Assembly (NCBI RefSeq): GCF_030286555.1
Contig: NZ_JASVWF010000006.1
Span: forward strand, 248,001-312,000
Source: Actinomycetospora termitidis
GTDB lineage: Bacteria > Actinomycetota > Actinomycetes > Mycobacteriales > Pseudonocardiaceae
Length of the DNA: 64,000 nucleotides
Reading direction: 5' to 3'
Positions 8,991 through 40,269 of the stretch are shown piece after piece. Under the pieces are notes generated by a model that ran no database searches, was not told the DNA's origin, and was given only the letters and a program-made list of their open reading frames with translations. The position numbers and the translations under genes are program-made. Position 1 is the first letter of the stretch. Each line of letters opens with the position of its first letter.

Positions 8991-9668
8991 ATGGCGGAGG
9001 TCGCGACGGAGCCCGCGCGGCGGGTCACGAGCGTGGCGCGCGTGGTCGACGAGATCCGGACGATGCTGCGCACGCGCGAGCTGGTGCCCGGCCAGCAGGT
9101 CCGCCAGGAGTCGCTCGCCGCCCGCCTCGGCGTGAGCCGCATCCCCGTCCGCGAGGCGCTGAAGTCCCTCGAGGCCGAGGGCGTGATGCGCCACGAGCCG
9201 CACGTCGGCTACACCGTGGCGCGGCTGTCCGCGGACGAGCTCGCGCAGGTCTACCTGATGCGCCGGGCGCTGGAGACCGAGGTGCTGCGGGCCCTGCCTC
9301 GGCTGTCATCGGCGCAGCTCAGCGAGCTCGTCGGCCTGAACGAGGCGATCGTCGCGGACGTCGAGGCCACCGACGTCGCGGCCATCGTCGCCGGGAACCG
9401 CGCGTTCCACTTCGCGATGTTCGGCTACTCCGGGCTGGACCTCGTCGTCGGCGAGATCGACCGCCTCTGGACCCGCAGCGAGCCCTACCGGACGGTGCAC
9501 CTCTACGACGCGCAGGGACGGAAACGGGTGGTCCGCGAGCACCGCCGGATGATCACTGCATTGCGCCGGGGCGACAACGAGGCGGTCGTCGAGCTGATGA
9601 ACGCCCACCGCGACGTCACCGTGAGCGACCTGCACGCCGCCCTGGGGTTGCCGACCCTCCCGCGCTGA
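8991..9668 (+). CDS. GntR family transcriptional regulator (FCD type)
   Basis: 225 aa. N-terminal winged helix with RQESLAARLGVSRIPVREALKSLEAEG (about 38-64). All-helical FCD effector domain with an Arg-rich YLMRRALE start, NRAFHFAMFGYSG and the late VVREHRRMITALRRGD. In FadR/FCD regulators these His/Asp positions bind a metal and a carboxylate ligand. It lies between the divergent acyl-CoA operon and the transporter/selenoprotein operon. A repeated GCATCCAATCC box occurs on both sides, so it probably represses both in response to a small acid (inference). Confidence 0.92.
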   Translation: MAEVATEPARRVTSVARVVDEIRTMLRTRELVPGQQVRQESLAARLGVSRIPVREALKSLEAEGVMRHEPHVGYTVARLSADELAQVYLMRRALETEVLRALPRLSSAQLSELVGLNEAIVADVEATDVAAIVAGNRAFHFAMFGYSGLDLVVGEIDRLWTRSEPYRTVHLYDAQGRKRVVREHRRMITALRRGDNEAVVELMNAHRDVTVSDLHAALGLPTLPR

Positions 9669-9791: not shown

Positions 9792-11078
9792 ATGACCACG
9801 GAGCAGCCACTGGGGACGGCCGACCCCACCGCCGCCCCGCCCGAGTACACGCCCGGCGAACGGCGTCGCATCCTCGGCGCGGCCTGCCTGGGCTGGGGCA
9901 TGGAGTACTTCGACTTCATGCTCCCGACGCTGCTGGCGCCGCTGATCATGGCGCACTTCGGCGTCTCGGCCGGCGTGTTCAGCGTGGCGATCGTCGGGCA
10001 GCTGATCGGGTCCGCGGTGGGCGGGCTGGTCTTCGGCTGGCTCGGCGACCGCTACGGGCGCCGCCGCACGCTGATCTGGTCGATCCTCATCTACTCGATC
10101 GCCACCGGCCTGGTGTTCTTCGCGCCGAACTTCGCCGTCTTCGTCGTCCTGCGGATCCTCACCGGCGTCGGGACCGGCGGCGAGTGGGCCGTCGGGTTCG
10201 CCTGGCTGAACGAGGCGTGGTCGCCGAAGCGCCGCGGGCTCGGCGGCGGGCTCGTCCAGTCGTCGCTGTGGCCGGCCTACGCACTGGCGATCCTCGTCGC
10301 GCAACTCGTCCCCGACTGGCGCTACGCCTTCCTCATCGGCGTCCTCCCTGCGCTCGGGTGCGTGTGGATCCGCTACGCGTGCCGGGAGTCGCGCCAGTGG
10401 GAGGAGCTGCAGCGCCGCAAGGCGACCGGACAGCTCTCCGCCGACCTCGCCCGCACCGCCGCACGCTCACCCTGGCGCCAGCTGGTCGCCCGCGACGCCC
10501 TGCCGTTCGTCGGGCTCGGCCTGCTGGTCGCGTTCGGCGGTCAGTGGGTGCCCTACACGGCGACGACGTGGATGCCGTCGATGCTCAAGAGCGACCTCGG
10601 GTTCTCGACGAACGCCGCGAGCACCGTCCTCTACGTCGCCTCCGCGATCTCCTTCGTCGGCTTCATCCTCGCGGGCTGGCTCTCCGACCGGCTCGGACGA
10701 CGCCGGGTGTTCGTCGCCTTCGCGGGGCTGCAGACCGTGGTGTTCGCCGTGATGCTGTTCCTGGCCGTCGAGGGGAGCGGCCTGTCGAACTTCGTATGGC
10801 TCTACCTGCTGTCCAGCCTGTTCCTCGGCTACTTCGGCATCTTCGGGGTGTGGTTCGGCGAGCTGTTCCCGACCCGCATCCGCTCCCTCGGCTCGGCCGC
10901 CGCCTACAACATCGGCCGCGGTCTCTCCGGCATCGGCACCCTGATCGGTGGCATCGTCGCCACCACGTCCGGTTACGGCATCGCGGTCGGGATCGCGGTG
11001 GTCGGCGCCGCGATCGTCACGGTCGCGGCCGTCTTCCTGCGCGACCGGTCCGGTCGCGTCATCACGGCGGAGGAGTAG
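9792..11078 (+). CDS. MFS transporter (metabolite:H+ symporter type)
   Basis: 428 aa integral membrane protein with about 12 hydrophobic segments. The loop 2-3 motif GWLGDRYGRRRT and the matching loop 8-9 motif GWLSDRLGRRRV are both intact. GTGGEWAVG in segment 5 is typical of organic-acid/aromatic-acid proton symporters. It ends two bases before the GTG of the first selenoprotein gene, whose ribosome binding site lies inside the transporter's last codons. It is therefore the probable importer of the substrate handled by the downstream proteins. Substrate not identifiable from sequence. Confidence 0.92.
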   Translation: MTTEQPLGTADPTAAPPEYTPGERRRILGAACLGWGMEYFDFMLPTLLAPLIMAHFGVSAGVFSVAIVGQLIGSAVGGLVFGWLGDRYGRRRTLIWSILIYSIATGLVFFAPNFAVFVVLRILTGVGTGGEWAVGFAWLNEAWSPKRRGLGGGLVQSSLWPAYALAILVAQLVPDWRYAFLIGVLPALGCVWIRYACRESRQWEELQRRKATGQLSADLARTAARSPWRQLVARDALPFVGLGLLVAFGGQWVPYTATTWMPSMLKSDLGFSTNAASTVLYVASAISFVGFILAGWLSDRLGRRRVFVAFAGLQTVVFAVMLFLAVEGSGLSNFVWLYLLSSLFLGYFGIFGVWFGELFPTRIRSLGSAAAYNIGRGLSGIGTLIGGIVATTSGYGIAVGIAVVGAAIVTVAAVFLRDRSGRVITAEE

Positions 11079-11080
11079 GC

Positions 11081-12781
11081 GTGGAACCCACCTACGAGGC
11101 GATGTGGCCGCTCGGACCGAAGGTGGCCGACGACGTCGCCGAGCACGAGCGGCCGGACCGGCTCACCGGGGTGCGGGTCGGCTACCTGTGGGACGAGCTC
11201 TTCCGCGGGCCGGAGATGTTCGAGGTCATCTCCGACGTGGCCCGCGAGCGCCACGGCGACGTCGAGTTCGTCGGATGGGAGGAGTTCGGCAACTTCCACG
11301 CCTCCGCCGCCGAGGAACGCAAGGTCCTTGACGCCCTGCCGGAGCTGCTGCGCGCGCACCGCGTCGACCTCGTCGTCGCCGCGGTGGGTGCTTGAGGCTC
11401 CTGCATGCCTGCCGTGATGCGGGCAGCGGCCACCGCCGAGCGCGCCGGGGTCCCGGCCGTGGCGATCGGGGGAGCGGGGTTCGAGGGCATGGGGCGCGCG
11501 ATCGGGCGGTCCCTGGGCGTGCCGCACGTCCCGATCGTCAGCTACCCCGGAGTGATCCTCGCCGACGACACCCCCACGTTCCGGACGAAGATGCGCGACC
11601 AGGTCGCACCCGCCGTCGTGGACGCGCTGGTGGCGGGGTCGGCGGCCACCACCGACGCTCTTCCCGACGCCGAGCCGTCCCCGACCGACGTCGTCGTCTC
11701 GGGCGACCTCGACGCGGTCACCGAGCACTTCGAGGCGCGCGGCTGGACCGACGGCCTCCCGATCGTCCCGCCGACCCCCGAGCGCGTCGCGGCCTTCCTC
11801 GCCCGCACCCGGCGCGACCCCGACGAGGTGCTCGGCGTCCTCGCGCCCGACCAGCGGCAGGCGACGGTGCGCAGCGTCGCGGTCAACGGCGTCGTGGCGG
11901 GCTGCCGACCGGAGTACATGCCGGTGCTGCTCGCGGTCGTGGAGTGCCTCGCTGATCCGGTCTTCCGGGTCCAGGACGCGGGGTCCACGCCGGGGTGGGA
12001 GCCGCTGGTGGTGCTGTCCGGACCCGTCGTCGGGACCCTGGACTTCAACAGCGGGACCGGCGCGCTGCGGGCCGGGCGACGCGCCAACACGGCGGTCGGG
12101 CGGTTCGTGCGGCTCTACCTGCGCAACGTCGCCGGCCTGCGCATCCCGCCGGAGCACACCGACCAGGGCGCGATCGCGGGGACCTTCCACGTCGCGCTGG
12201 CCGAGAACGACGACGCCGTCGCCGGGCTGGGCTGGCCGTCGTTCCGGGAGGACCGGGGGTTCGACGCCGCCGACTCCGTCGTCACCGTCCAGAGCGTCGT
12301 CACCGTGAGCGCACCGATCTATTCCGGCGGCGAGACCGCCCGCGACCACCTCGACGCGCTGACCCGCGGCATGGCCGACGCGATCGGACCGTGGGCCTAC
12401 ACCGGGCTGGAGTTCGGAGCGTTCCACCCGCTGCTCGTCGTCGGGCCCGCCGTCGCCGCGGCGCTGGCCCGGGGCGGCGTCGACAAGGACGCGATCCGCG
12501 CGCACCTCGGCGAGCACCTGCTGGTGGCGGCGTCCGCGCTGCAGACCTGCGCGTGGAACGTCGGGTCGACCAGCTTCGACCTGGACGCGAAGGTGGCGGC
12601 CGGGGAGGTCGACGACCGGTACGCCGGCACCGACCCCGACCGCCTCGTCCCGATGCTGCAGCGGCCCGACGACCTCGGGATCGTGCTGGCCGGAAACGAG
12701 AGCCGCAATCAGTCGCGCGGCTTCGTCCAGAACCACGTCCAGGGCGTGCCCGTGAGCCGCCGGATCGAGGAGGGCCCATGA
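11081..12781 (+). CDS. UGSC family selenoprotein fused to a GW-DGLP/AGC domain (UGA at 11393 read as Sec105)
   Basis: GTG start with GGAGGAG just upstream. The frame runs 104 codons to a TGA (11393-11395), continues GGC TCC TGC (Gly-Ser-Cys) and stays open to 12781, giving 566 residues with Sec105. Residues 1-195 form the UGSC domain: VDLVVAAVGA before the Sec, then GSC and PAVMRAAATAERAGVPAVAI after it. Residues 205-566 form a second domain with GWTDGLPIVPPT (221-232) and VAGCRPEYMPVLLA (about 272-285), shared with two downstream proteins. A 7-bp hairpin follows the TGA at the spacing expected for a bacterial SECIS. UGSC is an established selenoprotein family of unknown reaction. The U-G-S-C motif places Sec and Cys three residues apart, as in redox sites. 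A nonsense mutation is the alternative but is unlikely, because the paralogue at 13633 has TGA at the same motif position. Confidence 0.88.
11406..11425 (+). promoter_or_regulatory. Putative SECIS hairpin for UGA 11393
   Basis: TGCCTGC (11406-11412), loop CGTGAT, then GCGGGCA (11419-11425) gives a 7-bp stem with one G-U pair. The loop starts 18 bases after the UGA and has G at its second position followed by U. These features agree with the known bacterial SECIS pattern bound by SelB. It lies inside the coding sequence, as bacterial SECIS elements do. Confidence 0.6.
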
Positions 12782-13629
12782 GCGAACCGGACTGGGACGT
12801 CGTCGTGGTCGGCGCCGGGATCGCCGGGCTGACCGCGGCGCGAGTCTGCGCCGAGCAGGGCCTGCGGGTCGTCGCGCACGACATGCTCGCGCCGGGCGGA
12901 CGGCTGATCAACCTCGGCGCGGTCCAGGGCTGGCCGGGCAGCGCCCCGCAGGGGCCGGAGTTCGCGGGCGCCCTGCTCGAGGAGGTCATGACGGCGGGCG
13001 TGGAGATCGCGTACGGCGAGGTCACGGGCCTGACGCCGGGTCGGCCGGTGGGCGTCGAGACGGCGGAGGGGCCGGTGAGCACGCGGGCGGTCGTCGTCGC
13101 GACCGGACGCGCGCCGGACGAGGGCGGGCTGCCGGACGCGCCGGACTGGGCCGGTCGCGGGCTCTCGGAGTGCGCCGCGTGCGACGGACCGCTGTACGCC
13201 GGGAAGAAGGTCGTCGTGCTCGGCGGCGACGAGTGGTCCGCCGCCGAGGCGCTCGAGCTGGCGGAGGTGGCGGCGCACGTGACGGTCGTGGCGCCGTCGG
13301 TCTCCTGGTCCGCGGCGGCCGAGCGGCGGGTGGCCGGCTCCCCGACGATCGAGGTCCGCCGCGGCGCGACCGCGACCAGGCTCGAGGGGCCGTCCACCCT
13401 CGCCGCAGTCCACCTCGACGACGGCAGCACCGTCGAGGCCGCGGGCGTGTTCCTCGCGGGCGCCACCCGCCCCCGCCGGGCGCTGCTCGACGCGGCCGGC
13501 GGGGAGCCGCACGTCATCGCGGCCGGCGACGTGGCCAGCTCCGACGACCCGCCCACCCTGCTCGCCGCCGCCGCGGACGGCCACCGGGCCGGGCTCGCCG
13601 TCGTGACCCTGCTGCTCTCGGAGGACTGA
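12778..13629 (+). CDS. Thioredoxin-reductase-like FAD/NAD(P) disulfide oxidoreductase
   Basis: 283 aa, ATG overlapping the stop of the selenoprotein gene (ATGA). FAD-binding VVVVGAGIAGLTAARV at the N-terminus, VVVATG near residue 110, redox-active CAAC followed by DG (132-135), then the NADPH domain with VVVLGGDEWSAAEALELAE and a final AAGDVAS. The order and the CxxC-D-G motif match thioredoxin reductase, but the protein is about 30 residues shorter, and in GGDEWSAAEA the usual GGGDSAxEEA pattern is altered. It sits between two selenoprotein genes, so it is the obvious candidate to reduce their Sec-Cys pairs (inference). Confidence 0.9.
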   Translation: MSEPDWDVVVVGAGIAGLTAARVCAEQGLRVVAHDMLAPGGRLINLGAVQGWPGSAPQGPEFAGALLEEVMTAGVEIAYGEVTGLTPGRPVGVETAEGPVSTRAVVVATGRAPDEGGLPDAPDWAGRGLSECAACDGPLYAGKKVVVLGGDEWSAAEALELAEVAAHVTVVAPSVSWSAAAERRVAGSPTIEVRRGATATRLEGPSTLAAVHLDDGSTVEAAGVFLAGATRPRRALLDAAGGEPHVIAAGDVASSDDPPTLLAAAADGHRAGLAVVTLLLSED

Positions 13630-13632
13630 CCG

Positions 13633-14160
13633 ATGCGCATCGTCGACCCCACGTACGGACTCGCGCCCGCCGACCAGGAGTCGGCCGCCGTCACCGCGAC
13701 CCCCACCGACGACCTGTGCGGCCTGTCGAACTCCAAGCCCGGCGCGACGGTGCTGCTGGAGACGGTCGGGCGCCGCCTGTTCGACGACCATGGGCTCGGC
13801 CCCATGTCCGTCGCCTCGAAGCCCAGCGCGGCCGCCGGTGCCACCCCGGAACTGCTCGACCACCTCGCCGCGCAGTACCGGTTGGCGGTCGTCGCCATCG
13901 GCGATTGAGGCTCGTGCTCGTCGTGGAGTCTCCACGACTCGCTGGAGCTGGAGCGCCGCGGCGTCCGCTCCGTCCTCGTCGTCACCCGCTCGTTCCTGCC
14001 GCTGGTCCAGGCGCAGGCGAAGGCCCGGAAGGCCGAGCCGCGCCTCGTCGTCGTGGACCATCCGATCGGCGGGCTCTCCGACGCCGAGCTCGCAGGCCGG
14101 ATCGACGCGGCGTTCGACGGGGTGCTGGAGACCTTCCGGGGCATGGAGGTGCTGCCGTGA
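13633..14160 (+). CDS. UGSC family selenoprotein, single domain (UGA at 13906 read as Sec92)
   Basis: 175 residues from ATG 13633 with TGA 13906-13908 read as Sec92. The N-terminus (MRIVDPTYGLAPADQE, then TDDLCGLSNSKPGATVLLE and the segment with GPMSVASKP) is of UGSC type. The site is LAVVAIGD-U-GSC followed by SSWSLHDSLELERRGVRSVLVV, the expected helix after the motif. The frame then stays open with normal GC-rich third positions to the TGA at 14158, which overlaps the next gene's GTG. A perfect 8-bp hairpin lies right after the UGA. Without readthrough the product would be 91 residues and lack the conserved helix. Confidence 0.88.
13920..13938 (+). promoter_or_regulatory. Putative SECIS hairpin for UGA 13906
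   Basis: GTCGTGGA (13920-13927), loop GTC, TCCACGAC (13931-13938): a perfect 8-bp stem with a GU-containing triloop beginning 20 bases after the UGA. Stem length, spacing and an early loop G fit the bacterial SECIS rules. It is stronger than the element in the first gene. Confidence 0.7.
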
Positions 14161-15167
14161 CCGAGACGCTGGACGTTCCCGCGGACGCCGACTGGGAGGA
14201 CTGGGTCGACGACCGCGGCTGGGGCGACGGCCTGCCCACCGTCGCCCCGACCGAGGACCGCGTCGACGCGATGCTGCAGGGCCTTCCCGACGGTGCCGCG
14301 GCCGGGTTGGCGGCGCTGCCCCCGAGCGGGCTCACGCCGACGCTGCGCTCGGTGGCGGCGAACGCGGTGATGGCGGGCTGCGTGCCCGGGATGCTGCCGG
14401 TGCTGCTCGCGGCGCTGGAGGCGGTGTCGACCCCGGCGTACAACCTGCACGGCACGCTCGCCACGACCCACCCGTGCGCGCCGATGGTGCTCGTCTCCGG
14501 GTCCGCGCGCGCCGGGTTCCACGGCGGCGGGAACTGCTTCGGGCCCGGGAACCGCCGCAACGCCACCCTGGGCCGGGCGCTCTCGCTCGTGCTGCTGCAC
14601 GTCGGCGGGGCGCGGCCGGGGACGCTCGACCGTTCCACCCAGGGCTCGCCCGCGAAGTACACGTTCAGCTTCGCGGAGTCCGACGAGAGCCCCTGGGCGG
14701 GTCTGCCGTCGCGGCGGGGCTTCGACGACGGCGAGCCGGTCGTCTCCGTGATGGCCGCGGAGCCGCCGCACAACGTCAACGACCACGGCAGCACCACCGG
14801 CGACGGCATCCTCACGACGATCGCCGGGACCATGGCCGAGACCGGTTCCAACAACGTCTACGTCCGCGGGCCGCACCTGCTCGTCCTCGGCCCCGAGCAC
14901 GCCGCGACGCTGCACCGCGACGGGTGGGACCCGGTCTCGATCCGCGAGCACCTGTGGAAGACCGCGCGGATCCCGGTCGAGAAGGTGTCGCCGGGGAACC
15001 GGGAGCAGTTCGTCGAGTGGGGCGTGAAACCCGACGGCGACGCGTACACGGTCAGCACCGGCCCGGAGCAGCTGCACGTCGCGGTGGCCGGGGGAGCGGG
15101 GAAGCACTCGGCGTGGATCCCGTCGTTCGGCGGGACGGAGCTGGTGTCGGTGCGGGTGCGGCGGTGA
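14157..15167 (+). CDS. GW-DGLP/AGC domain protein, paralogue of the C-terminal half of the first UGSC selenoprotein
   Basis: 336 aa, GTG overlapping the previous stop. DDRGWGDGLPTVAPTEDRV (residues 18-36) and ANAVMAGCVPGMLPVLLAALEAV (68-90) match residues 221-237 and about 268-290 of the 566-aa selenoprotein. Later segments also correspond: a GNRRNATLGRALSLVLLHVGG block, YTFSFAESDESPWAGL, and HLLVLGPEHAATLHRDGW. No Sec codon. Cys75 of the AGC motif is conserved in all three paralogues. Function unknown; it probably acts with the selenoproteins because the genes overlap and the domain is found fused to one of them. Confidence 0.85.
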   Translation: MTETLDVPADADWEDWVDDRGWGDGLPTVAPTEDRVDAMLQGLPDGAAAGLAALPPSGLTPTLRSVAANAVMAGCVPGMLPVLLAALEAVSTPAYNLHGTLATTHPCAPMVLVSGSARAGFHGGGNCFGPGNRRNATLGRALSLVLLHVGGARPGTLDRSTQGSPAKYTFSFAESDESPWAGLPSRRGFDDGEPVVSVMAAEPPHNVNDHGSTTGDGILTTIAGTMAETGSNNVYVRGPHLLVLGPEHAATLHRDGWDPVSIREHLWKTARIPVEKVSPGNREQFVEWGVKPDGDAYTVSTGPEQLHVAVAGGAGKHSAWIPSFGGTELVSVRVRR

Positions 15168-16054
15168 CCTTCTCGCCGGTGCCCATCGGGTGCACGGTCG
15201 AGGACGCGACGACGTCGTTGCTGGCCGACGGCGTGGGCGACGGCCTGCCGGTCGTCCCGCCGACGGTCGAGCGGTGGGAGCGGATGCTGGACGGGGTCGC
15301 GGACCCGGACGCCGTGCTCGCCGTCGTGCCGCCGCTGTTCGGGGAGCTCACGGCGCGGACCGTGGCGGGGTGCTGCGTGCTCGCGGGGTGCCGACCCGGG
15401 GTGGTGCCGCTGGTGCTGGCCGCGGCGCGGGCGGCGTGCGAGCCGGAGTTCAACCTGCTCGGGGTGCAGACCACGACCGGGACGGCCGCCGTCGGGATGA
15501 TCGTGCACGGGCCGGTCGTCTCGCGGCTCGGGTTGTCGTCGTCGACCGGCATGCTCGGCCCGGGCCCGCACGCGAATGGGGTGCTGGGGCGGGCACTGGC
15601 GTTGACGTTGTCAGCGGTGGGCGGCGTGACCGCAGGCGTCACCAGCATGGCCACGACGGCGCAGCCCGCGCGGTACGGGTTCTGCCTGGCCGAGTCCGGC
15701 GGGGCGTCCGCCGTGACCGTCCTGGCGATCGGCGGGACCGCGGAGGTGCTGCCGCGCGACGACCTGCCTGCCCCCGACGACGTCCTCGACCCGCTCGCCG
15801 ACGCCCTCGCCGCTCCGGGCCGCGCCGCCGGCGGGCTGGACCGCATGGCCGAGTGCGAGCAGACGCTGGTCCTCCCGCCGGAGATCGCCGGTCGGGTCCG
15901 CGACACCGACGACCTCCTCGCCCGGGCGCACGCCCGTCTCGGGGCACCGGTGGGTGCGCTGCGCGTCGTGGAGGCGGGCGGGCCCGGGGTGAAGATGCTG
16001 CACCTACCGGGATGGATGGGCGGTTCGCGCGGGGTGACGCGGACACTGGGGTAG
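15164..16054 (+). CDS. Second stand-alone GW-DGLP/AGC domain protein (short paralogue)
   Basis: 296 aa, GTG overlapping the previous stop by four bases. GDGLPVVPPTVERWERML (residues 25-42) and CCVLAGCRPGVVPLVLAAARAA (70-91) place it in the same family as its neighbour, but it is shorter and more divergent in its C-terminal half, which has ERMAECEQTLVLPPE-like and GAPVGALRVVEAGGPG segments. Last gene of the overlapping set transporter, UGSC, reductase, UGSC, DGLP, DGLP. Two different copies plus the fused one suggest a hetero-oligomer. No family function known to me. Confidence 0.8.
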   Translation: MTFSPVPIGCTVEDATTSLLADGVGDGLPVVPPTVERWERMLDGVADPDAVLAVVPPLFGELTARTVAGCCVLAGCRPGVVPLVLAAARAACEPEFNLLGVQTTTGTAAVGMIVHGPVVSRLGLSSSTGMLGPGPHANGVLGRALALTLSAVGGVTAGVTSMATTAQPARYGFCLAESGGASAVTVLAIGGTAEVLPRDDLPAPDDVLDPLADALAAPGRAAGGLDRMAECEQTLVLPPEIAGRVRDTDDLLARAHARLGAPVGALRVVEAGGPGVKMLHLPGWMGGSRGVTRTLG

Positions 16055-16818: not shown

Positions 16819-17030
16819 GCGTGCGCACACGGCCAGGGCGGTTCACCCTCCGTCGCGTGAGCGTTGCGTGGCGCACACGGCGGGCGCGGGTCGCGTCCCG
16901 CCACACGGGCGTTGCGGGACGCACACGGCGAGGGCAGTTCGCCTTCCGCCACGTGGGCGTTGCGTCGCGCACACGGTCGGCGGCGTTGGTGTTCTGCGAC
17001 GCAGGCGTTGCGGTAGGCAGTACGTGGACG
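16819..17030 (+). repeat. 48-bp tandem repeat array, block A
   Basis: Core units of the form GTTGCGTSGCGCACACGG start at 16819, 16866, 16914, 16962 and 17010, a spacing of 47, 48, 48 and 48 bp. The spacers are also related (GGGCGCGGGTCGCG/AGGGCAGTTCGCC-like). The region has no recognisable gene; open frames exist only because 48 is a multiple of three. Function unknown. Confidence 0.8.
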
Positions 17031-17072
17031 CGGGTCACCCGCCGCGATCACGGGAGACCGCGCTGCAGGATT

Positions 17073-17122
17073 GACGTCAGTGGCAGCGCGCAGCGCGGAG
17101 TGCGCGCCGTGCCACTGACGTC
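17073..17122. repeat. Long inverted repeat inside the 48-bp repeat region
   Basis: GACGTCAGTGGCA (17073-17085) and TGCCACTGACGTC (17110-17122) are perfect 13-bp arms. Inside, GCGCGC (17086-17091) can pair with GCGCGC (17102-17107), giving a strong cruciform. There is no T-run, so a plain intrinsic terminator is not indicated. It interrupts the 48-bp lattice between blocks A and B. Confidence 0.75.
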
Positions 17123-17214
17123 GTTCGTGACCGTCGGCGATCCGGTCGTACGGGGCACCGGGTACCGGGCCCGAGGGCCGCTCCCCGACACCGCCAACCG
17201 CGACGCCCGCCTCT

Positions 17215-17571
17215 TGCGTCGCGCAACGCGACCGTCGCCTCGTGTGACCATCCGAGCCGTGTGCGTCGCGCACACGGCGGGCGCGGGTCGCGTCCCACCA
17301 CACGGGCGTTGCGGGACGCACACGGCCAGGGCAGTTCGCCCTCCACGACGTCGGCGTTGCGTCGCGCAACGGGGCTGTCGCCACGTGCCGTCCGTCCGGG
17401 CCGTGTGCGTCGCGCAACGGGGCTGTCGCCACGTGCCGACTGTCCCGGCCGTGTGCGTCGCGCAACGGGGCTGTCGCCACGTGCCGACTGTCCCGGCCGT
17501 GTGCGTCGCGCAACGGGGCTCTCGGAACGTGCCGACCGTCCCGGCCGTGTGCGTCGCGCAACGGCCCCCGC
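17215..17571 (-). repeat. 48-bp tandem repeat array, block B (orientation switches)
   Basis: Cores lie at 17216, 17263, 17311, 17359, 17407, 17455, 17503 and 17551, nearly all exactly 48 bp apart. From 17407 on the unit reads CCGTGTGCGTCGCGCAACG, the reverse complement of the block A core. The units between 17263 and 17371 mix both half-sites, producing near-perfect palindromes at 17257-17277 and 17355-17371. Four units from 17361 share the extra segment GGGCTGTCGCCACGTGCCG or close variants. Non-coding as far as can be seen. Confidence 0.82.
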
Positions 17572-38800: not shown

Positions 38801-38854
38801 GCCCCGACGCTAGGAACTGAACCGCACTCGAGGTCAAGGCCGGCGGATGCTCGT

Positions 38855-39016
38855 GCGTCGCGCACACGGCTCGCGGTGGTCGCCGTGCTCCGGGCCGCCG
38901 TTGCGTGGCGCACACGGCCGGGAGCGGGCGCTCGTCCGCGGATCGCCGTTGCGTCGCGCACACGGCCAGGGGCGGTCGCCGTGCTCCGCGCCGCCGTTGC
39001 GTCGCGCGCACGGCGG
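38855..39016 (+). repeat. 48-bp tandem repeat array, block C
   Basis: Four cores of the type GTTGCGTSGCGCACACGG at 38855, 38903, 38951 and 38999, exactly 48 bp apart. This is the same unit and orientation as block A 22 kb away. The spacers share GGTCGCCGTGCTCCG. Part of a 905-bp gene-free stretch (38801-39705). Confidence 0.82.
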
Positions 39017-39030
39017 GCCAGGACCTCGAG

Positions 39031-39290
39031 GTCGACGTGACGCAAGGTTCTGGCGCCGCGGATCCTGCGTGGTGTCGCTCTCGTGATGGGGTCAACGGGG
39101 ACGGGTGCAGCGCGGCGGCGCGACGTCGACGTGACGCAGGTTCTGGTGCCGCGGGTCCTGCGTGGTGTCGCTCTCGTGATGGGAGTGACGCGGACGGGTG
39201 CAGCGCGGCGGCGCGAGGCCGACGTGACGCAGGTTCCGACGCCGCCGAACCTGCCACGTGTCGCACTCGCGATCGGCGGACGTGCGCCCG
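39031..39290 (+). repeat. 93-bp tandem repeat, about three copies
   Basis: The motif GACGTGACGC(A)AGGTTC recurs at 39034, 39128 and 39221, and CTGCGTGGTGTCGCTCTCGT at 39065 and 39158, with a weaker third copy at 39251. Period is 93-94 bp. The same segment is found once more at 54231-54290. Non-coding by appearance. Confidence 0.75.
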
Positions 39291-39360
39291 CCCGTGATCA
39301 CGACTTCGGGAGCGACACGCCCAAGATCTGCTGCGACTCGCCGCCGAAGTCCCGATCACG

Positions 39361-39668
39361 GTGTCCGACTCCTGCGGCCCAACGCCGGGGAGTGCGGACT
39401 TCCCGGGCCGTGCGCGCCGCGCAACGCGGAGGCCGGGGAGTGCGGACGGTGCGGACCGTGTGCGTGCCGCAACGCGGGGGCGGGGGAGTGCGAACGGTGC
39501 GGACCGTGTGCGTGCCGCAACGCCGGGGCGGGGGAGTGCGAACGGTGCGGACCGTGTGCGTGCCGCAACGCGGGAGGCCGGGGAGTGCGAGCCGCCCGAA
39601 CCGTGTGCGTGCCGCAACGCGGGGGTGGGGGAGTGCGAGCCGCTCGAACCGTGTGCGTGCCGCAACGC
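39361..39668 (-). repeat. 48-bp tandem repeat array, block D
   Basis: Cores CCGTGTGCGTGCCGCAACG, or with GCGCGCCGCG, at 39409, 39457, 39505, 39553, 39602 and 39650 (48, 48, 48, 49, 48 bp), plus a degenerate copy near 39361. The core is the reverse orientation of block C. The spacers are GGGGGAGTGCGAACGGTGCG-like. Ends 38 bp before the convergent membrane-protein gene stop. Confidence 0.82.
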
Positions 39669-39705
39669 CGGCCCGCCGTCGGACGAGGACGACGGGCCGG
39701 GCGGA

Positions 39706-40269
39706 TCAGCCGACGCGGGCGATCCGGAAGGCGACCTGGGTTCCGGAGACCTCGGTGACGGTCACGCCGAGCTGGGCCTGCTCGCCGTCGACCGTGCCGG
39801 TGCACACGGTGGTGGCGCCGACCTGGCCGGGCAGCATCTCCGGGCAGACGACGTCCTCGGCGCCGATCTGGGCCGAGACCTCCGGCGCGAGCTGCTCCGG
39901 CGTCACGGCCGGAATGTCGGACGACGAGGACGACGAGGGCGACGCGGGCGGGACGTCCGGCAGCTGGGAGACCTGCTGGGCGATCGAGGCGGCCATGACG
40001 CTCACGATCACGGCGGTCACGACGCCGAGGACCACGAACACGATGCTCAGCCACATCCCCGCCGTCGCGAGGCCGCGGCCGTTCTCGTTCCGCTCGCGCG
40101 CCTGCCGGCGGCCGATGACGCCGAAGACGATGCCCAGCGGGGAGAACACGAACGCGAAGACGATCGACAGGATCGCCATCGTGTTCGTGCGCTGCGGCGC
40201 GGGCGGGGCGGGCGTGTAGCCCGGGGCGGGCTGTTCGGGGGAGGCGTACGGGGGGAGCTGCTGCGTCAT
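39706..40269 (-). CDS. DUF4190/DUF4333-type membrane protein
   Basis: 187 aa, ATG 40269. A Pro-rich cytoplasmic head is followed by two transmembrane segments (AILSIVFAFVFSPLGIVFGVIG and WLSIVFVVLGVVTAVIVSVM) of the DUF4190 type. After a Ser/Pro linker comes an extracytoplasmic DUF4333-like domain with two Cys (VVCPEMLPGQVGATTVCTGTVDG) likely to form a disulfide. Function unknown; common in actinobacteria. Confidence 0.85.
   Translation of the reverse strand: MTQQLPPYASPEQPAPGYTPAPPAPQRTNTMAILSIVFAFVFSPLGIVFGVIGRRQARERNENGRGLATAGMWLSIVFVVLGVVTAVIVSVMAASIAQQVSQLPDVPPASPSSSSSSDIPAVTPEQLAPEVSAQIGAEDVVCPEMLPGQVGATTVCTGTVDGEQAQLGVTVTEVSGTQVAFRIARVG

Follow-up and report, generated by a model that had tools for sequence, protein, structure and literature searches.

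Two candidate selenoprotein genes in one operon

We analyzed a 64,000-nucleotide stretch of the Actinomycetospora termitidis genome (contig NZ_JASVWF010000006.1, positions 248,001 to 312,000), which we refer to as the window and number from its first letter. An operon in this window encodes a predicted selenoprotein of the UGSC family, in which the domain with the U-G-S-C motif is fused to a second domain that we call DGLP after one of its conserved motifs (Table 1). A preliminary description of this DNA had pointed to a TGA inside a single reading frame, followed by Gly-Ser-Cys, and the 566-codon frame at 11081–12781 bears this out. The codons GGC TCC TGC (Gly-Ser-Cys) stand directly 3' of the TGA at 11393–11395, and 461 sense codons follow this internal TGA before the frame ends at a second one (12779–12781). 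The proposed homology to the UGSC domain past the UGA also holds, as the match to PF24696 (UGSC) covers residues 8–184, across the TGA, with a score of 87.1 bits (cut-off 25).

The preliminary description had overlooked that the same operon contains a second TGA-GSC (13906–13908), a thioredoxin-reductase-like flavoprotein, and two paralogues of the DGLP domain. The stand-alone UGSC protein matches PF24696 with 121.8 bits (cut-off 25), and a search of the 6.56-Mb genome returned only these two UGSC proteins, with one internal TGA each. Because three of the gene junctions are ATGA or GTGA overlaps, translation of the operon genes is probably coupled.

Table 1. Features of the UGSC-DGLP operon and its surroundings (window coordinates)
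Feature	Position	Strand	Remarks
GntR-FCD transcription regulator	8991..9668	+	upstream of operon
Major facilitator superfamily (MFS) transporter, organic/aromatic acid:H+ symporter-like	9792..11078	+	ends 2 nt before fusion gene
UGSC-DGLP fusion selenoprotein gene	11081..12781	+	GTG start, 566 codons, predicted selenocysteine at residue 105
In-frame UGA, predicted selenocysteine codon, then Gly-Ser-Cys	11393..11395	+	codon 105
Putative bacterial selenocysteine insertion sequence (SECIS) hairpin	11406..11425	+	7-bp stem 11406-11412/11419-11425, loop 11413-11418
DGLP domain, residues 203-566	11687..12778	+	364 residues; conserved W-x-DGLP and AGC (Cys275)
Thioredoxin-reductase-like flavoprotein (Pyr_redox_2) with CAAC	12778..13629	+	ATGA overlap with fusion gene
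Stand-alone UGSC selenoprotein gene	13633..14160	+	175 residues, predicted selenocysteine at residue 92
Second in-frame UGA, then Gly-Ser-Cys	13906..13908	+	inside stand-alone UGSC gene
Stand-alone DGLP-domain gene	14157..15167	+	GTGA overlap with stand-alone UGSC gene
Third DGLP-domain gene	15164..16054	+	GTGA overlap

Decoding of the in-frame UGA

The components of selenocysteine (Sec) decoding named in the preliminary description, selA, selB, selD and tRNA-Sec, are all present in the genome. The tRNA-Sec scores 70.3 bits (cut-off 47) and is assigned the anticodon tca by ARAGORN; SelA and SelD score 318.1 and 384.5 bits, and SelB scores 248.4 bits against a cut-off of 242.25. The same genome contains a formate dehydrogenase frame (locus L011, 10386–13826, minus strand) with one in-frame UGA (QARI-U-HSATV), and this frame adjoins tRNA-Sec, SelA, and SelB.

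We collected 91 fusion loci, 79 from genomes and bins and 12 from genomes of the same taxonomic family (our genome included); two of them, L127 and L128, are apparent near-duplicates. The motif codon is TGA in 88 of these loci and TGC in the other three (Curtobacterium pusillum L056, Nocardioides sediminis L059 and Novosphingobium flavum L101). Since the codon is kept in this way, we can exclude a chance in-frame TGA. Comparison with Cys homologues, which had been suggested as a check, gave a concordant result with Cys at the motif position in 42 of 43 full-length database homologues; the remaining protein (P0060) carries Ser-Gly-Thr-Cys instead of U/C-Gly-Ser-Cys. For the second UGSC protein, 67 matches in the loci have TGA (38), TGC (28), or TGT (1) at this position, although some of the weaker matches may be fusion domains, and the UGA is kept in 11 orthologous loci including our own. 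Across the 144 UGSC sequences of our profile set, the first motif position is Sec or Cys in 141, and the second Cys of UxxC is kept in 140. Matches to nearly the whole fusion occur in 12 of 249 family genomes, each with one TGA, and all 12 genomes encode SelA compared to 158 of the 237 others (Fisher p 0.011, uncorrected for kinship). SelA is also found in 39 of the 40 family genomes in which the fusion protein had a match of any kind, and the matches in the exception (G486) contain no stop.

The preliminary description had also noted a 7-bp hairpin whose loop lies 17 nt past the UGA, and folding reproduced it at 11406–11425. In a synonymous-site test on 90 TGA sequences (88 loci, one being the window itself, plus both window genes), the position after the UGA gave a mean z of -1.10 with 27% of sequences at p<0.05, as compared to mean values of -0.20 to +0.20 and 1–12% at seven control offsets. 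The three Cys loci gave z values of +0.6, 0.0, and -0.3, and the hairpin of the second UGSC gene in the window gave -1.5. In 77 of the 90 sequences, 84.4% of the cells of the 7-bp stem show pairing, versus 28–60% for slid versions, and 6 sequences replace G-C by A-U at one pair of the stem. Since synonymous codons across the family favor the hairpin and the stem pairs well, a SECIS function is plausible: selection on pairing is supported by the sequence statistics, covariation is not.

Several observations weigh against selenocysteine decoding or against the hairpin. The hairpin of the fusion gene itself is not significant when the window is taken alone (z -0.45), the covariation score of the stem (0.080) does not exceed that of the version slid by -2 (0.089), and the outermost stem pair is broken in 50 of 74 rows. 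In three of the 144 UGSC sequences the motif opens with G, S, or T. SelA is widespread in the family anyway (170 of 249 genomes, with the association uncorrected for kinship), and neighboring genes of the SelA or SelB cluster, in themselves a point in favor, lie in the fetched flanks of a minority of fusion loci (11 of 79). Finally, a PF24696 search of 296 genomes of the same class returned 23 UGSC matches outside our own genome, several of them sharing a genome, and 22 of these 23 contain no stop and therefore use a sense codon. Taken together, decoding of the UGA at 11393 as selenocysteine is well supported. The earlier assignment of Sec to residue 105, a prediction from sequence, draws strong support from the Sec machinery, the conservation of the codon, and the hairpin signal at the family level.

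Database annotation tells a different story. The nearest database entries of the fusion protein are about 458 residues long and start at a Met just past the UGSC motif, as expected from the earlier claim that gene callers misread this gene; one of these entries is named "UGSC family (seleno)protein". Full-length proteins make up 43 of the best 120 among 2393 scored homologues; another 76 are shorter, most of them beginning at the Met following the motif, and one has 953 residues. These annotations, together with the ATG directly after the motif, would fit a true stop at 11393, with translation ending after 104 residues and starting anew at ATG 11405 to give a second product of 458 residues. 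We consider this very improbable. Met occupies the restart position in 11 of the 144 UGSC sequences and Thr in 108, and such poor conservation argues against a real restart. Moreover, the loci read have no codon other than TGA or a Cys codon at the motif position, a stop would sever the UGSC domain mid-way, and the genome contains the machinery to insert Sec. With the UGA read as Sec codon, the database record explains why the fusion remains hidden: annotation often starts after the UGA and removes the active site.

The UGSC-DGLP module

The DGLP domain of the fusion protein stayed below the cut-off of every Pfam and NCBIfam family, and with 42 diverse members neither collection gave a match better than E 0.01. 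Within 172 members of this domain, the DGLP motif, R341, N349, and E375 are near-invariant, and 162 retain the cysteine of AGC (Cys275). The structure model of the domain is confident (predicted local distance difference test score, pLDDT, 93.9), and a search of the PDB with this predicted structure gave no clear fold match. The best Foldseek hits, weak ones (E 2.1e-3, TM about 0.2), are to Toblerone-fold cyclic amide hydrolases and class I fumarate hydratases.

To the UGSC domain, DGLP is a regular companion. The fusion recurs across loci and is no one-off, and 21 of the 23 class-sample loci, which were found by UGSC alone, encode a DGLP domain within a flank of about 1.5 kb. Fusion loci often continue with further UGSC/DGLP pairs (e.g., L044, L046, L048 and L103). 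UGSC and DGLP form one module, fused or adjacent, which we find in Actinobacteria, Proteobacteria, Chloroflexi, Acidobacteria, and others. Two loci with UGSC and DGLP matches of lower identity are possibly other fusion subtypes: in L131 (genome G332) the matches span 93–542 with one TGA, and in L132 (G360) they span 23–404 without a stop, in each case maybe in one frame. Several metagenome bins that carry the fusion are titled Bordetella parapertussis (L045, L061, L069, L070, L073, L079, L084, L085, and L104), and these titles are probably misassigned.

UGSC was among the abundant prokaryotic selenoprotein families in a 2008 ocean survey, with 255 selenoprotein sequences (PMC2398784), and the functions of such families are described as largely uncharacterized in the portion of a 2026 review available to us (PMC13188914). 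The same survey described a UGSC domain fused to a conserved domain, "Unknown_1", in the Global Ocean Sampling (GOS) metagenome (PMC2398784). Hence, the earlier suggestion that the fusion may be undescribed stands only in part: a UGSC fusion to a conserved uncharacterized domain was in print, and the second domain studied here has no Pfam or NCBIfam family. Unknown_1 may be the same domain as DGLP; the part of that report accessible to us gives no module rule, relation to GrdB, or operon (PMC2398784). Nor did the accessible literature mention a rule linking UGSC to DGLP, a relation to GrdB or PrdB, a link to a flavoprotein, or an operon with two selenoproteins. What is new here is the UGSC-DGLP module, the homology of UGSC to GrdB/PrdB, and the recurrent flavoprotein with a CxxC motif.

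Relation to GrdB and PrdB

Comparison by hhalign of the 144-sequence UGSC profile with the C-terminal region of 17 GrdB/PrdB-type proteins gave a probability of 96.8% (E 2.9e-10) and an alignment that places Sec on Sec. Masking the four motif columns in both profiles left the register unchanged and gave E 1.1e-7. Against the 13 long GrdB proteins alone UGSC scored E 4e-7, and against the four short ones alone E 3e-8. As decoys, the reversed profile gave E 0.054 and the best of ten column shuffles gave 0.0033; other alpha/beta stretches, namely GrdE and N-terminal GrdB, resemble UGSC at a background level of about E 2e-4. Judged from these profiles, UGSC and the Sec region of GrdB/PrdB share a remote common ancestry. 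Short GrdB-like proteins are encoded at L165–L168 in other genomes of the phylum by open frames of 164–212 residues. Their match covers the last ~135 positions of PF07355 and is closely followed by UGA-xx-Cys; their short flanks contain no DGLP match above 25 bits.

Both systems also resemble each other in their components. In the part of the source at hand, the second partner without Sec is GrdE or PrdA, and NADP-linked thioredoxin reductases are named together with Grd (PMC9751293); here the corresponding places would be taken by DGLP and by the thioredoxin-reductase-like flavoprotein. The systems differ in that this DGLP partner is without detectable kinship to GrdE and that UGSC does not match PF07355 directly.

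A number of results caution against drawing UGSC-DGLP too close to known families. An initial profile of 15 UGSC sequences aligned with an N-terminal stretch of full-length GrdB (probability 55.5, E 1.2e-4) instead of the Sec region. Neither UGSC protein of the window matched PF07355 at E 0.1; nor did the 15 members of our set A1 at E 5, and the genome itself has no match to PF07355 or PF09338. For this reason we regard UGSC as kin of GrdB/PrdB and not as a member. The profile comparison of DGLP with GrdE detected no relation (probability 0.2), so that the pyruvoyl chemistry of glycine and proline reductase is not to be assumed. With respect to the UGSC family, both window proteins score well above the PF24696 cut-off and have U-G-S-C at the expected place, but the fusion protein continues into a DGLP domain of 364 residues, and both fall below the 125-bit cut-off of the NCBIfam equivalog NF041046 (UGSC_fam), with 44.6 bits (fusion) and 114.8 bits (stand-alone).

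Proposed function

The flavoprotein of the operon matches PF07992 (Pyr_redox_2) with 65.9 bits and contains CAAC, in keeping with the thioredoxin reductase family. It departs from this family in its setting inside a selenoprotein operon and in having relatives that recur next to UGSC-DGLP genes. The corresponding cluster lies beside 17 of the 79 fusion loci, a minority that also counts against a general link; all 17 members have CxxC and are 27–38% identical to the window flavoprotein. By record title, these loci come from Proteobacteria, Actinobacteria, Acidobacteria, and a Lachnospiraceae bin. Given its place in the operon and these relatives, the flavoprotein is probably dedicated to UGSC-DGLP.

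A flavoprotein of this type, together with a UxxC motif as found in many redox selenoproteins, would also suit a selenoprotein that handles thiol-disulfide exchange or peroxides, with DGLP as its redox partner. This follows the thioredoxin-like fold suggested for UGSC in 2008, as far as the source was accessible (PMC2398784). In the predicted structure of the fusion protein, Sec sits between a strand and a helix of a Rossmann-like alpha/beta domain, and thioredoxin folds were not among the fold matches, although such absence falls short of proof. We regard a thiol or peroxide redox protein as rather unlikely.

The neighborhoods of the 79 loci further include clusters of the tricarboxylate-transport receptor TctC (25 loci), MmgE/PrpD (13), CoA-transferase III (11), short-chain dehydrogenase/reductase (SDR, 11), and SBP_bac_5 binding proteins (10); each cluster was named from one scanned representative, and gene calling there was heuristic. 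These neighbors suggest a role of UGSC-DGLP in the uptake and breakdown of organic acids. The MFS transporter of the operon resembles symporters for such compounds, with every NCBIfam subfamily match under its own cut-off. The MmgE/PrpD cluster, along with the weak resemblance of DGLP to cyclic amide hydrolases and fumarate hydratases, could also mean that DGLP is the main catalytic domain of a non-redox reaction (hydrolysis, dehydration, or isomerization) in which Sec or Cys of UGSC acts as nucleophile. We consider such a reaction improbable.

We rather think it probable that, after decoding of UGA as Sec, the UGSC and DGLP halves form a single selenoreductase that is akin to glycine and D-proline reductase and is recycled by the flavoprotein. 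We infer the substrate class, the redox chemistry, and the individual steps by analogy, with the chemistry of GrdB/PrdB as model for the attack by Sec. The UGSC domain, related to GrdB/PrdB, would supply the selenol, and the DGLP domain would hold the substrate, possibly imported by the MFS transporter. Sec105 may then attack an electrophilic carbon of the DGLP-bound organic acid or its CoA ester, with the AGC cysteine (Cys275) close by as a candidate catalytic residue. Cys108 could resolve the adduct, so that release of the product would leave a Sec105-Cys108 selenenylsulfide, which the flavoprotein (12778–13629) might re-reduce either directly or via thioredoxin. The UGSC and DGLP genes at 13633–15167 would encode the enzyme a second time, split into two proteins and in parallel to the fusion.

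More tentatively, and just short of what we would call probable, UGSC and DGLP may represent a new class of two-part Sec reductases, in which the unrelated DGLP protein, with an AGC cysteine of its own, stands in for the pyruvoyl subunit of glycine and D-proline reductase, and in which the selenol is regenerated by a dedicated flavoprotein as organic acids are broken down. UGSC, GrdB, and PrdB would then belong to one superfamily of Sec-dependent C-X reductases. Through the link to GrdB/PrdB and the regular partner without family name, what was a motif becomes an enzyme system that can be tested and that has a probable electron donor.

Other features of the window

At 16824–17564 and 38854–39719 the window contains tandem repeats whose period is 48 bp and whose units resemble each other (TGCGTCGCGCACACGGCC-like). 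The first stretch lies just downstream of the operon and contains copies in both direct and inverted orientation.
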